NCBI GenBank assembly: GCA_027028245.1
Contig: JALVJO010000109.1
Span: 1-46,203, forward strand
Direction: 5' to 3'
DNA from: Deltaproteobacteria bacterium
GTDB taxonomy: Bacteria; Desulfobacterota; Dissulfuribacteria; Dissulfuribacterales; QOAL01
DNA length: 46,203 nt
Each line of letters begins with the position of its first letter. The first letter of the stretch is position 1. The notes below the pieces were generated by a model. The model saw only the letters and a list, made by a program, of their open reading frames with translations, was not told the origin of the DNA and searched no databases. The translations under genes and the position numbers were made by a program. Of the stretch, positions 39,025 through 46,023 are shown piece after piece.

Positions 39025-40311
39025 TTAAGCAGCGTGGCGTGCGCGGAATGCCTTGATGTCGCGTTCCCAGCCGCCTTCAACCTCACTCTCCTGCCAGAAG
39101 ACGTAGGGATTGGACCGTGGTTCCTTGACCATCTGCGGAATGGGCTTCAGATCCGCAATGCGCAGGAATTCCTGTAGGCTCTTGCGCTGGATCAATTCGC
39201 CGAAACGCTCCCTGTTCTTTCCGAGCTCCATCCACCAATCCCAGATCTTGTCCACGAAGTCCTTGAACTCGTCGTAGGGGGCTTCCATGCGTATAAATGG
39301 AATTGCCAGGGTGGACATCTGGGCTCCATCGAGGATCGGGGCCTTGGCGCCGCAGAGTATTGTTGCACCTGTATCAGTACCCGGACGCAGTGCCTCTGGC
39401 ATTACGTTGATGCAGTGCATACACCTGGTGCACTCCCTGTTGTCTATCTTGAGCTCATCGCCGTCCATCCACATACACTCTGATGGACAAAGATCAATTA
39501 CTTCTTTTTGAATGTCAAAGGGGCCCCAGTCCCTGCCGGAAAAGGCGCCTCCGTTTGGCTTGATCTCTCCGCCCATATAGGCCTTTACTGCCTCCTGGTC
39601 GATACGGATATCATCCCTCCATGTTCCTATGATGGAGCAGCAGGAACGTGCAATGGCTGCAACGCAGTCATTGGGGCATCCGGAGACCTTGAACTTGAAC
39701 TTGTAAGGGAATGCAGGCCTGTGAAGCTCATCCTGGTATGTCTGGGTGAGGTCATAGCAGATCTGCTGGGTGTCAAGACAGGACCACTCGCAGCGTGCCT
39801 TTCCTATACAGCAGGCAGGTGTACGAAGGTTGGAGCCTGATCCGCCGAGGTCAACGCTCATCTGGTGCGTCAGGTCATAGAACACCGGCTCAAGCTGGTC
39901 AGTGGTGGTGCCCAGGAGAATCATGTCGCCAGTGGAGCCGTGGAAATTTGTCATGCCGCTGCCCCTGTGGTCCCACATGTCGCATACCTTGCGCAGATAG
40001 GCTGAGCTGTAAAACTTGCTTGCCGGCTGGTTGACGCGCATGGTGTGAAAATGGGCAATGGTCGGGAATTTATCAGGTACGTCTGAGTAGCGGCCGATTA
40101 CACCTCCGCCATAACCGAAGACGCCCACGATACCACCGTGCTTCCAGTGGGTTTCCTTGTGGACATAGGACAGTTCCAACTGCCCCAGAAGGTCAAGGCA
40201 ATCCTGTTTGCCCTTCAGGCCCTTCTGTTCTATGTCGTCAACAAAACTTGGCCATGGCCCTTTTTTTAGGTCATCGCACATTGGAGTGTCATGCTTCTTG
40301 ACATCAGCCAT
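39025..40311 (-). CDS. dsrA: Dissimilatory sulfite reductase alpha subunit
   Basis: Larger subunit of the sulfite reductase, 428 aa. Key parts are the sirohaem/cluster cysteines in TPACCIGKARCEWSC and SGCPNDCVAAIARSC, and the ferredoxin insert with CPSECMW and ECTRCMHCINVMPEALRPG. The N-terminal MADVKKHDTPMCDDL is less conserved. A very strong SD (AAGGAGGGAG) lies 7-9 bases upstream of the ATG. It heads the minus-strand dsrABD operon. A 296-bp AT-rich region with a palindrome lies upstream. Confidence 0.97.
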   Translation of the reverse strand: MADVKKHDTPMCDDLKKGPWPSFVDDIEQKGLKGKQDCLDLLGQLELSYVHKETHWKHGGIVGVFGYGGGVIGRYSDVPDKFPTIAHFHTMRVNQPASKFYSSAYLRKVCDMWDHRGSGMTNFHGSTGDMILLGTTTDQLEPVFYDLTHQMSVDLGGSGSNLRTPACCIGKARCEWSCLDTQQICYDLTQTYQDELHRPAFPYKFKFKVSGCPNDCVAAIARSCCSIIGTWRDDIRIDQEAVKAYMGGEIKPNGGAFSGRDWGPFDIQKEVIDLCPSECMWMDGDELKIDNRECTRCMHCINVMPEALRPGTDTGATILCGAKAPILDGAQMSTLAIPFIRMEAPYDEFKDFVDKIWDWWMELGKNRERFGELIQRKSLQEFLRIADLKPIPQMVKEPRSNPYVFWQESEVEGGWERDIKAFRARHAA

Positions 40312-40607: not shown

Positions 40608-41279
40608 TCATTTTTCCCCTTTGGCACCTATCTTGACTTCCTGGAATCCTTCCAAAAGCGTTGAGACAGGTCTTCCCAGGAAGAATAAAAGCTCATCAGC
40701 AGAAATGCCCAGGGCCTTCATTATCTCAGCCCTGAAACTTGCGTCGTTATCCGCCAGCATGTGGGGCTCATCGGCTGGGCTGTCATGACCGGCATGAATG
40801 TCCTGGGATATTTCAAATATCATTTCCACCGGGAAGGCCTCTTCATACTTTTGCACCAGGTTGAACAATATGGTACCAGGGGGAATAAGATCAATACGCG
40901 TTAAGAGATCTTTCAAGAATAGGTTCCGAACAGGCTCAGTGTCCCAGCATTTCAAAATTCGGCATTCCAGGGGCCTTTTCTCATAGATCAAGCAGACATT
41001 TTCTTCTTCATTCAGAAACAGGCAAGTTGATTTGAGGCCCTTTCCGCGTATCTTTATCATCTCGGATTCCAGCCTTATAAGCTGCCTTGTATCAGGATTA
41101 ACAGCAAGCTCCCCCCTGCGGTATGTCATGAGCATGGAAGGCTTCAGAATACCTTCCACCACAAGCCGGCGGTCCTCATGGTGCAAACACGGCCCACCCT
41201 TTCTGCAGCAGGTTCCGCACCTCTTGCATTCCGTCTGAATTAAGTTATCCTGTTCCGGGATGTCAGATAACATAACCAT
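40608..41279 (-). CDS. YkgJ-family cysteine-cluster protein
   Basis: A 223-aa protein with the N-terminal C-x2-C-x2-CC motif (CKRCGTCCRKGGPC) and later cysteines in CLFLNEEENVCLIYEKRPLECRILKC, the YkgJ (CxxCxxCC) pattern thought to bind zinc or an Fe-S cluster. Function is not known. Start choice is uncertain: the frame is open to 41369, and ATGs at 41294, 41279 and 41273 all lie near the opposing gene start; 41279 is used because GAGG lies about 13 bases upstream. It diverges from another YkgJ protein, with which it shares 20 bp, and sits immediately upstream of the dsr region. Confidence 0.75.
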   Translation of the reverse strand: MVMLSDIPEQDNLIQTECKRCGTCCRKGGPCLHHEDRRLVVEGILKPSMLMTYRRGELAVNPDTRQLIRLESEMIKIRGKGLKSTCLFLNEEENVCLIYEKRPLECRILKCWDTEPVRNLFLKDLLTRIDLIPPGTILFNLVQKYEEAFPVEMIFEISQDIHAGHDSPADEPHMLADNDASFRAEIMKALGISADELLFFLGRPVSTLLEGFQEVKIGAKGEK

Positions 41280-41838
41280 TGAAAATAAATCCATCCTCGA
41301 GCTGCTTAAGCAGGTTGACAGTGCCGTAGCTGCAGTTGCTTCTCGGTTTCCCAGGGAATTCAAGTGCAAGAAAGGATGCTCCGACTGCTGTCACGCAGCC
41401 TTTGATATATCCCTTGCAGAGGGTATGCTCATTCAGGACCACTTCAAACTTCTCGGCAGAAAGACCAGAAGAGACGTACTGAAAAGGGCCAGGCGGGCAG
41501 AAAAACGCTGGCACGACGCCCTGGAAGCTGGAGAAGATATTTCACTGCTTCGAATTTCCTGTCCTCTTTTGAGCCCTGACGATCAATGTCTCCTCTACGA
41601 AGTCCGTCCTGTAAACTGCCGGACGTACGGAGCTCCCACAGAAATAAACGGTAAAGGGCATGTCTGCTCCAGGTCCGGCTTTTCACCTGGCAAGACCTAT
41701 CCCACAGTACGTCTTCACCTTATACAGGAACGGCTTCTTGATATATCCATGGAAATAAATCCGCAGATAGCCCATAAAAGATGGCCGGTAGCCAGCGTAC
41801 TGCTTGGAACTCTTACAGAGAATAGTGAAGCTGTCTAA
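41260..41838 (+). CDS. YkgJ-family cysteine-cluster protein, second copy
   Basis: A 192-aa protein with cysteines in CKKGCSDCCHAAFDIS (C-x3-C-x2-CC) and later in SCPLLSPDDQCLLYEVRPVNCRTYGAP and HVCSR, again the YkgJ family layout. The two proteins share the motif order but differ in length and elsewhere, so they are distant relatives. The ATG at 41260 has only a weak SD, and the gene overlaps the divergent copy. Its 3' end overlaps the HEAT/TPR gene on the other strand by 4 bases. Function is unknown. Confidence 0.75.
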   Translation: MSDNITIENKSILELLKQVDSAVAAVASRFPREFKCKKGCSDCCHAAFDISLAEGMLIQDHFKLLGRKTRRDVLKRARRAEKRWHDALEAGEDISLLRISCPLLSPDDQCLLYEVRPVNCRTYGAPTEINGKGHVCSRSGFSPGKTYPTVRLHLIQERLLDISMEINPQIAHKRWPVASVLLGTLTENSEAV

Positions 41839-43582: not shown

Positions 43583-44218
43583 TTATGACTGCTGACCGCT
43601 TAGTTTGGCTTCAAAATCCGGATGAATGGGATAACCGAGCTCCTTAGCCTTGGACATGGCCTGGCTTGCCCTTTCCAGGTCACCCTTGTAATAGCAGGCT
43701 ACTGCCAGGTTGTTGAAGGCAAGGCCGAATTCCGGAGCAAGGCTCACGGCCTTCTCGGCCACTTCAACTGCCTTGTCGAGATCATTCAATTCCACCAATA
43801 CAGTTGCATAATTGGTAAGGGCCGGCACCATCTCAGGCTTTTCCTGCAGGGCCTGCTGGAAATATTCAGCAGCGTCCTCCCATTTTCCCATCTGAAGATA
43901 GGCTGAACCAATATTGGCCATTGCCTCTGCAGCTGCAGGATGGGCATTGAGGGCCTCCTTGTTTTCCCTGATCCCTTCTTCCAGGCGACCCATCTGGAAA
44001 AACAGGGTCCCGAGGTTTATACGGATTTCAAAGGAGGCGGGATCCAGTTTGAGGGCCTGCTGAAAACTCGATATGGCATCATCCACCCTGCCGGCCTTCC
44101 AGTAGGCAAGTGCCAAACGATGATGGGCCACCACCGAATTCTTGTTTTCTCTAACCTCTTTTTCAAGATCCTGGATAATCTTATCCAGGTCACCTGATTT
44201 TATTGGATTTTGAGCCAT
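43583..44218 (-). CDS. TPR-repeat protein
   Basis: A 211-aa soluble protein with about five tetratricopeptide repeats (such as AHHRLALAYWKAGRVDDAIS, IRINLGTLFFQMGRLEEGI, AMANIGSAYLQMGKWEDAA, AFNNLAVACYYKGDLERAS). No signal peptide or catalytic motif is present. AGGAGG lies 5 bases before the ATG. It begins a minus-strand pair with the HEAT/TPR gene 20 bp further on, between dsrOP and dsrABD, and may help assemble or position the sulfite-reduction proteins; that is inference from position only. Confidence 0.88.
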   Translation of the reverse strand: MAQNPIKSGDLDKIIQDLEKEVRENKNSVVAHHRLALAYWKAGRVDDAISSFQQALKLDPASFEIRINLGTLFFQMGRLEEGIRENKEALNAHPAAAEAMANIGSAYLQMGKWEDAAEYFQQALQEKPEMVPALTNYATVLVELNDLDKAVEVAEKAVSLAPEFGLAFNNLAVACYYKGDLERASQAMSKAKELGYPIHPDFEAKLSGQQS

Positions 44219-44506
44219 TATTCCTCCTGGTATATTTCGCCTTTAACCGGCGCTGCATTTATATTAAAATCTTGAGGGAACAACCTCTGAACGGAAACTC
44301 ACAAATTAACACAGATCAATAAATTTCCCAAACTTTAAAAAAAAGCAAATTAGAGATAAATTTTCGAACCATGAGCACCTAGGGCATGAAAGAAGGCAGA
44401 ACATTTATTATCTGCTGCCATGTCTTCAATAATAAAGTCATTGCAGGCCTTCCAGAAGCCGCACCAGATTAAACATGAAGCAGGAAGTGTTTCCCAAGTG
44501 GGATTC
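44219..44506. other. AT-rich gap between the TPR gene and the candidate selenoprotein
   Basis: Holds the TPR gene's ribosome site (minus strand) near 44222. A 28-codon plus-strand frame at 44386-44472 (starting MKEGRTFIICCHVF) has no visible SD and does not join the downstream frame; it may be a gene remnant. GAGG/CCTC (44274-44287) is a small stem. No promoter boxes stand out. The frame of the selenoprotein candidate is open back to an ATG at 44420. Confidence 0.4.
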
Positions 44507-44821
44507 ATGCCCTCAATACTCGAAGGAAACATTATTGCACAATACAAGGCAAAAACGGCTGAAAATACAGCAAAGGATAAAGACCCAGTGAGCCAACCTG
44601 AACCTGAAACGCCGCCTCAAAGCGAGGAACAAGAAGGTTTGACATGCCTTTTGTGCGGAGGCCCGGCCCAGCTCCAGGGCCGGTGAGCCAATGCTAAGGT
44701 ACTCTGCAGGTCCTGCGGAGTAGAACTTCCCGCTTCTCATTACAGCGAGCAGATCGAGGAATTAAAGGACAAAATGATATGCGAATTCAATAAGGGGGCA
44801 GATGAAACAGGCAGCCCCTGA
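44507..44821 (+). CDS. Candidate small selenoprotein (zinc ribbon with in-frame UGA)
   Basis: A 104-codon frame runs from ATG 44507 (or GTG 44498, which has AGGAAG 10 bases upstream) to TGA 44819-44821, broken only by a TGA at 44684-44686. Translating that TGA as selenocysteine gives C47-x2-C50 (CLLCGG), U60, C67-x2-C70 (CRSCG), then a helical tail LPASHYSEQIEELKDKM. Coding-like composition continues on both sides and the second CxxC pair completes a zinc-ribbon pattern. A hairpin downstream of the TGA fits a bacterial SECIS. Desulfobacterota commonly use selenocysteine. It lies in the 640-bp gap between dsrP and the TPR gene, on the opposite strand. The alternative is a pseudogene with a nonsense mutation. 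Function unknown; a redox or metal role is inferred. Confidence 0.5.
44696..44728 (+). promoter_or_regulatory. Candidate bacterial SECIS element
   Basis: TACTCTGCAG (44700-44709) pairs with CTGCGGAGTA (44713-44722) over 10 bp (one T-G wobble) around the loop GTC. AAG/CTT (44696-44698, 44726-44728) extends it below a small internal loop. The loop G is 24 bases after the TGA, inside the 16-37 range usual for bacterial SECIS. The apical GCAGGUC followed closely by CUGC is very like the E. coli fdhF SECIS (GCAGGUCUGC). All seen by eye; no folding was run. Confidence 0.5.
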
Positions 44822-44832
44822 GGAGCTGCCTG
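44808..44832. terminator. Hairpin between the candidate selenoprotein and dsrP
   Basis: CAGGCAGC (44808-44815) pairs with GCTGCCTG (44825-44832) around CCCTGAGGA, which contains the stop codon of the selenoprotein candidate. On the minus strand it follows the dsrP stop by 31 bases and leads into TTTC. The T-runs on both sides are weak, so it is a moderate terminator candidate for either direction. Confidence 0.5.
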
Positions 44833-44862
44833 CTTGTATTCCATATTTATATCTTGCTTTGT

Positions 44863-46023
44863 TTAGACCCTTTGCTCCTCCTCCCTGACAGAGATGGTTA
44901 CCTTATAGAGCACCGTGAGTATGAGTCCCCCCACAGCCCAGATGGCGGTAGCGATGGTGATTTCAGGGAACGTGGGATGATATTCAGTTATCATCTCAAG
45001 GGGGTTTGGTATGAAACCGCCTATGACCAGACCAACACCCTTATCAATCCAGGTTGCCAGGAAAACACATGCACATCCTATTGCGAGCCAAAGAGGCCTT
45101 CTCCTGATAGGAGGAACCAGAAGTATGAATATGCCGGCAAAACCGATGACGATGCATGCCCTCATAAAGGGAACCAGATTGCCGTATTCTCCAATACCCC
45201 AGAAAAGGTATTCCAAGGTTGCCTTGTGGCCCGGGATATTGCTGTAAAAGGCTGTGAAGAATTCCATACCCATGAAGAAGAAGTTTACGATCATGGCGTA
45301 GCAGATGGTACGGGCAATATTCTGCAGTGCTTCCTCGCCTGGATCAAACTTGGTAACCTTTCTGACAAACAGAAGGATCATGACCAGGAGAGAAGGCCCG
45401 GCTGCAAATGCAGATGCCAGAAAGCGGGGTGCCATTATGGCTGTCAGCCAGAAGTGCCTTCCTGGAAGACCTGCGTACAGGAATGCCGTAACTGTATGAA
45501 TACTGATGGCCCATGGGATGGAAAGATATATGAAGGGCTTCACCCAGCCCGGGCATGGAAGCCCCTTCTTGTCGGCAAGCAATGTATTGTACCCGCATAT
45601 TATGTTAATGATCAAGTAGCCGTTAAGGACGATCATGTCGTAGAACAGCATTGAATGAGGCGTGGGATGCAGAACCACGTTCATCATTCTCATGGGCTGC
45701 CCGATATCGACTACGATAAACAAGAGACACATTACCACTGCGGCAATGGCCAGGAACTCTCCGAACACCACCACCTTTGCGTACTTGGTATAGTGATGCA
45801 GGTATTTCGGAATGACCAGCATTACGGCCCCGGCTGCAACACCGACAAAGTAGGTGAACTGTGCGATATACACTCCCCAGGAGATATCCCGGCTCATGCC
45901 GGTAATTCCCAGACCGACCTTTAACTGGTAGAGATAGGCTAAAAATCCGGCCCCTATTATACAGAGTAAGAATATCACCCATCCCCAGTAAACAGATGAT
46001 CCTTTTAATGCCTTTTCAATCAT
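44863..46023 (-). CDS. dsrP: DsrP, NrfD-like membrane subunit of the DsrMKJOP complex
   Basis: Integral membrane quinone-interacting subunit, 386 aa with about ten helices (for example WVIFLLCIIGAGFLAYLY, GVAAGAVMLVIP, ICYAMIVNFFFMGMEFFTAFY). The PF03916 NrfD pattern is clear: SRDISWGVYIAQFTYFVGVAAGA and the later GHKATLEYLFWGIGEYG. DsrMKJOP links the quinone pool to the DsrC trisulfide cycle. It follows dsrO by 12 bp with GAGG 5 bases upstream of the ATG, and the other subunit genes (dsrM, K, J) presumably lie beyond the window's right edge. Hairpin 44808-44832 may end the transcript. Confidence 0.92.
   Translation of the reverse strand: MIEKALKGSSVYWGWVIFLLCIIGAGFLAYLYQLKVGLGITGMSRDISWGVYIAQFTYFVGVAAGAVMLVIPKYLHHYTKYAKVVVFGEFLAIAAVVMCLLFIVVDIGQPMRMMNVVLHPTPHSMLFYDMIVLNGYLIINIICGYNTLLADKKGLPCPGWVKPFIYLSIPWAISIHTVTAFLYAGLPGRHFWLTAIMAPRFLASAFAAGPSLLVMILLFVRKVTKFDPGEEALQNIARTICYAMIVNFFFMGMEFFTAFYSNIPGHKATLEYLFWGIGEYGNLVPFMRACIVIGFAGIFILLVPPIRRRPLWLAIGCACVFLATWIDKGVGLVIGGFIPNPLEMITEYHPTFPEITIATAIWAVGGLILTVLYKVTISVREEEQRV

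Follow-up and report, generated by a model that had tools for sequence, protein, structure and literature searches.

A gene with an in-frame UGA beside dsrP in a Dissulfuribacterales genome is very probably a selenoprotein of the 'hypothetical protein DW' family

Does a TGA codon that splits a short reading frame beside dsrP end a protein, or does it encode selenocysteine? The question arises on contig JALVJO010000109.1 of a Deltaproteobacteria bacterium (assembly GCA_027028245.1), from which a stretch of 46,203 nucleotides, hereafter the window, was analysed. A first-pass annotation, made from the sequence alone, had described one TGA in a 104-codon frame with a CxxC pair on each side and had proposed an unrecognised zinc-ribbon selenoprotein, next to sulfite-reduction genes and possibly redox active. 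The frame is as described, with C47 and C50 to the left of the TGA and C67 and C70 to its right, and translation of positions 44507-44818 with TGA read as selenocysteine (U) gives 104 residues, U60 being followed by 44 further codons before the stop at 44819. The coordinates of this and neighbouring features are collected in Table 1. Among candidate start codons the ATG at 44507 fits best. The frame is open as far as an upstream ATG at 44420, which was rejected as a start, the additional stretch having a pN/pS of 1.03 and a 3-nt indel relative to the nearest relative. An inverted repeat, CAGGCAGC...GCTGCCTG, lies across the stop codon at 44805-44835, between the gene and the convergent dsrP, and may perhaps serve as a shared terminator of the two; the terminator scan did not report this repeat, and signals in the promoter and terminator scan were at no more than chance level.

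Table 1 Features in and around the UGA-containing gene, in positions of the window
Feature	Position	Strand	Basis or remark
DW-family selenoprotein gene (very probable), 104 residues	44507..44821	+	ATG 44507, stop TGA 44819-44821; homologues across the UGA
In-frame UGA, read as selenocysteine U60	44684..44686	+	U in 132/134 distinct homologues, Cys in the remaining two
First zinc knuckle (predicted) CLLC (C47, C50)	44645..44656	+	Invariant, n = 134 sequences
Second zinc knuckle (predicted) CRSC (C67, C70)	44705..44716	+	Invariant, n = 134; codons form the apical part of the SECIS-type hairpin
C-terminal helix (predicted), residues 76-101	44732..44809	+	AlphaFold2 model
SECIS-type hairpin	44700..44722	+	10-bp stem 44700-44709/44713-44722, loop GUC 44710-44712; covariation, shuffles, position
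dsrP-type NrfD-family membrane protein	44863..46023	-	PF03916, E = 4.9e-35; convergent, next downstream gene in 24 loci
TPR-repeat protein	43583..44218	-	Divergent; nearest upstream gene in 25 loci
dsrA, dissimilatory sulfite reductase alpha subunit	39025..40311	-	PF01077; TIGR02064 570.8 bits

Homologues reading across the TGA, which the annotation had named as a check, were found, with position 60 occupied by Sec or Cys. When relatives were searched with the protein, X standing for the UGA codon, 42 of 99 had a match, in nearly every case with a single TGA at the same place; a profile search gave matches at E ≤ 0.001 in 42 of the order's 46 genomes. By our reading of the profile-search table, 38 of those 42 genomes carry the family proper (E ~1e-18 or better) and the rest only lower-scoring paralogues of the OS_HP3 type. 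Homologues with the TGA at that place also occur in many other families of the phylum, beyond the order itself. A DNA pattern scan of the GTDB collection returned 116 stretches, the record titles of which are deltaproteobacterial or Thermodesulfobacteriota, bar a few labelled only Proteobacteria or Pseudomonadota; because this pattern requires a TGA it is blind to Cys forms, which came instead from the protein search of relatives and the phylum-sample search. Named carriers are Desulfosarcina widdelii, D. cetonica, Desulfacinum hydrothermale, strain NaphS2, Thermosulfurimonas dismutans and Thermodesulfatator autotrophicus.

Across 134 distinct sequences, the Sec column holds U in 132 and C in two. 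Loci with Cys at this column are L050, from the same order, and L051 and L237, from family f46. The four Cys, including those at +7 and +10, and a Gly at U-2 are invariant (134/134), and R or K directly precedes U in 127 sequences. Further Cys residues are less regular, occurring at U-3 in 4% of the set, at U+31 in 50% and at U+32 in 16%, the last position being C92 in the window protein. Several members merit individual mention. An 89% identical copy (L002/L177, G034:C108) sits on a 5.3-kb contig in a MAG of another family that also has its own diverged copy, and is likely to be binning contamination. Two very similar copies in one bin, Meg19_1012_Bin_147 (L162 and L091), represent either a duplication or two strains. 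Members from family f105 (L240 and L241) score lower (41-48 bits) and are one residue longer between the first knuckle and Sec; they are perhaps a further subfamily.

All of the genes that selenocysteine insertion calls for and that the annotation had listed (selA, selB, selC and selD) are present in the genome, the tRNA-Sec scoring 74.9 bits, so that the Sec machinery is complete. The selD gene (L233, G000:C120:23164-24087) is itself a selenoprotein gene with an in-frame TGA near the N-terminus. The same genome has an OS_HP3 gene (G000:C48:26527-26685; ~5528-5685 of L244, minus strand; 45.8 bits against NF041197) with an in-frame TGA and a C-x-R-U motif, located directly after a fabD-like gene.

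The annotation had also placed a 10-bp hairpin with a GUC loop 13 bases after the TGA. The stem is perfect over its 10 bp, the spacer from the UGA is 13 nt (44687-44699), and folding of the 52-nt stretch from the UGA, as had been suggested, returns this hairpin as the centroid structure. In bacterial SECIS elements the apical loop lies 16-37 nt from the UGA; here it is 24-26 nt past the UGA, inside that range. The hairpin has a folding energy of -14.0 kcal/mol versus -6.1 ± 2.8 in 2000 codon-preserving shuffles (P = 0.0035), and of the window's 88 frames that a TGA divides into two parts of >40 open codons each, this one has the strongest downstream hairpin and the sole one at -11 kcal/mol or below. 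In an alignment of 40 sequences, 83.8% of cells are paired compared with 34-49% in partner-slid controls, part of this pairing being forced because the hairpin overlies conserved Cys codons. Both-side changes number 40 versus 17 in shuffles, the covariation score is 0.293 versus 0.133, and the top stem pair covaries across codons (AAG-GCT, ACG-GAG, ATG-GAA, AGG-GAC). Over 132 sequences the mean z of the folding energy against codon-preserving shuffles is -1.30, some members of that set pairing poorly; pairing in the outer stem (alignment columns 18-19 against 37-38) is kept in less than half of members, and these tests are not independent of each other because the sequences are related. The two Cys forms, a small control (n = 2), fold weakly at -3.2 and -3.5 kcal/mol versus a Sec-form mean of -8.6. 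No SECIS match was found in Rfam around the site at the gathering threshold and E ≤ 10.

Under the standard code translation would terminate at the 44684 TGA, leaving a 59-codon fragment or pseudogene with an untranslated right half. That outcome is scarcely credible here: the right half has been kept across more than 100 species, with invariant Cys and a pN/pS of 0.19 (versus the 89% identical copy), the Cys homologues run as an uninterrupted frame through the same position, and the genome has the full Sec machinery. A sequencing error as the source of the TGA, which the annotation had itself raised, is untenable because the conservation spans that many species. Open frames by themselves are equally compatible with suppression of the UGA or its decoding as another amino acid, such as Trp, which we judge very improbable against a column where Cys is the sole standard residue, a SECIS-type hairpin downstream of the UGA, the tRNA-Sec, selA, selB and selD of the genome, and a gene whose own stop (44819) is a TGA. 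The annotation's central proposal of a selenoprotein with a SECIS element is supported by the fixed UGA column, the Sec/Cys exchange, the retention of the hairpin at the nucleotide level and the complete Sec machinery of the genome. Judged from these comparisons of sequences, the gene is very probably both a genuine selenoprotein and a member of the family 'hypothetical protein DW'.

The family of the window gene was almost certainly named in 2025. A 2026 review (PMC13188914) has two entries under NF041197, one being OS_HP3 (motif RxU) and the other 'hypothetical protein DW' (motif GxU). DW was predicted in 2025 with the program deep-Sep (PMC12013277), in Desulfosarcina sp. BuS5 as well as in D. 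widdelii PP31; the program missed OS_HP3 in D. widdelii. On organism, motif and family number, the window-gene family is almost certainly DW, a sister of OS_HP3; the identification is strong but indirect, because it relies on the D. widdelii PP31 genome, with exactly one copy of the window-gene family and one separate OS_HP3 copy, and on the family being always GxU. The window protein has the layout of NCBIfam NF041197 ('dual CXXC motif small (seleno)protein'), with two CxxC and a Sec between them in a short protein. That model alone would not name it, because its 34.1 bits fall below the curated cut-off of 40; relatives score 46.4 (NaphS2) and 36.4 bits (D. widdelii), and all 87 aligned family members match at E ≤ 0.001. 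Pfam gave no domain above cut-off for the protein. The description of the selenoprotein as unrecognised does not hold for the family, which fits the published DW, and may hold for this particular gene, given its score. The curated cut-off thus leaves genuine members unnamed. The present set takes a barely described selenoprotein family, given so far for a few species, to well over 100 species, adds SECIS covariation and corrects the reading of one stop codon.

The zinc ribbon and helical tail that had been suggested recur in the AlphaFold2 model, which comprises a disordered N-terminus (1-40), a confident ribbon with two CxxC knuckles on a beta-hairpin (44 residues at pLDDT 90 or more) and a long helix at 76-101. 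U60 is placed in the turn that joins strand 53-57 to strand 64-67, several residues away from both knuckles. Matches to solved structures are weak and to generic zinc ribbons, and a sequence search of the PDB gave no significant match. Based on this predicted site, a single metal ion, Zn or possibly Fe, would be held by C47, C50, C67 and C70 within a rigid ribbon. The U60 selenol, which follows the invariant Gly and the Arg/Lys in the hairpin turn, would be the reactive group and not a metal ligand. Its partner would most likely be an outside thiol or a helix Cys (U+31, U+32), because a conserved CxxU partner is absent, Cys being rare at U-3. The protein may then act as a small thiol-, sulfane- or peroxide-reactive protein. 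We give this model-based reactive-selenol mechanism roughly even chances.

The gene lies beside dsrP, as the annotation had stated, and the usual setting in this order is a divergent TPR gene, the selenoprotein gene and a convergent dsrP. A single genome from another family, G305, shares the TPR neighbour and has its dsrA ~5 kb away, and in family f5 (G022, G030) the gene is closely followed by dsrA in the same orientation. Beyond this order and one further family, the flanking genes are unrelated, and in most other lineages dsrP is not adjacent. A CxxCxxCC (YkgJ-like) gene on the same strand ends 57 nt before the UGA in family f28 (L202, L048, L137, L218), and relatives of this gene also occur inside the dsr block of the window (41260-41838).

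Of 395 genomes sampled across the phylum, 52 contain the selenoprotein family, and 51 of these have dsrA; G013, the one without it, falls in the same taxonomic family as the window, whose other genomes generally have dsrA. Hits without a stop from family f50 were left out of this count, since those that were read resemble OS_HP3-type Cys forms. The capacity to insert Sec does not explain the association, because selB is present in 353 of the 395 genomes: among these the family is found in 51 of 181 with dsrA versus one of 172 without (Fisher P ~1e-15, kinship ignored), and all 18 positive families lie among the 54 dsrA families of the 110 sampled (P ~5e-7), the figure of 181 and the family counts coming from lists compared by hand. 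The association is confounded by phylogeny and remains a correlation. It is new relative to the published descriptions of DW-type proteins, as far as their available portions extend.

What the association means for function is a separate matter. A selenoprotein with no functional tie to sulfite reduction could have acquired both its dsrP neighbourhood and its co-occurrence with dsrA by descent in sulfate-reducing lineages. We find this explanation somewhat more likely than not, in that both traits track phylogeny, the flanking genes are not the same beyond this order and one further family, and only ~28% of genomes having both dsrA and selB carry the gene; it sits less easily with the presence of dsrA in every positive family and with the f5 loci, where the gene directly precedes dsrA in the same direction. 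If the protein does have a specific role, one in sulfur metabolism is the most likely, because the family is almost confined to genomes with dissimilatory sulfite reductase. Such a role, as a redox helper concerned with redox handling or protection in dissimilatory sulfite-reductase sulfur metabolism, is suggested tentatively by co-occurrence and local synteny. A dedicated accessory to the reductase, for example one guarding or reducing protein persulfides such as that of DsrC, is a more doubtful proposition; if true, it would be a selenium role in the sulfite-reductase pathway without a known description. As for a link to sulfite reduction, the adjacency to dsrP and the co-occurrence with dsrA stand, and the functional tie amounts to correlation and local synteny. 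The near-exclusive occurrence with dsrA is a first lead to function, which cultured carriers such as Thermosulfurimonas dismutans and D. widdelii make testable.

Comparison with known systems places the protein, by its predicted fold, near zinc ribbons of the RNA polymerase II Rpb9 type, eIF2-beta, NrdR, Trm112 and LysW, which likewise have a beta-hairpin with two CxxC knuckles. Unlike the window protein, none of these domains carries a Sec, and the fold and sequence matches to them are weak. Closer is OS_HP3/NF041197, with which the family shares the dual CxxC, a Sec in the same place between them, a core of ~53 residues and the existence of Sec and Cys forms. The OS_HP3-type copies of this order differ in having C-x-R-U, a CxxU pair, and a DRI/DRV-like end, whereas the window gene has GRU without that Cys. 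The closest counterpart is DW, as described in the available portions of its sources: it shares the G-x-U motif, the presence in D. widdelii PP31 and the Sec and Cys forms, and the wide distribution, SECIS covariation and dsr association reported here for the window-gene family go beyond that description.
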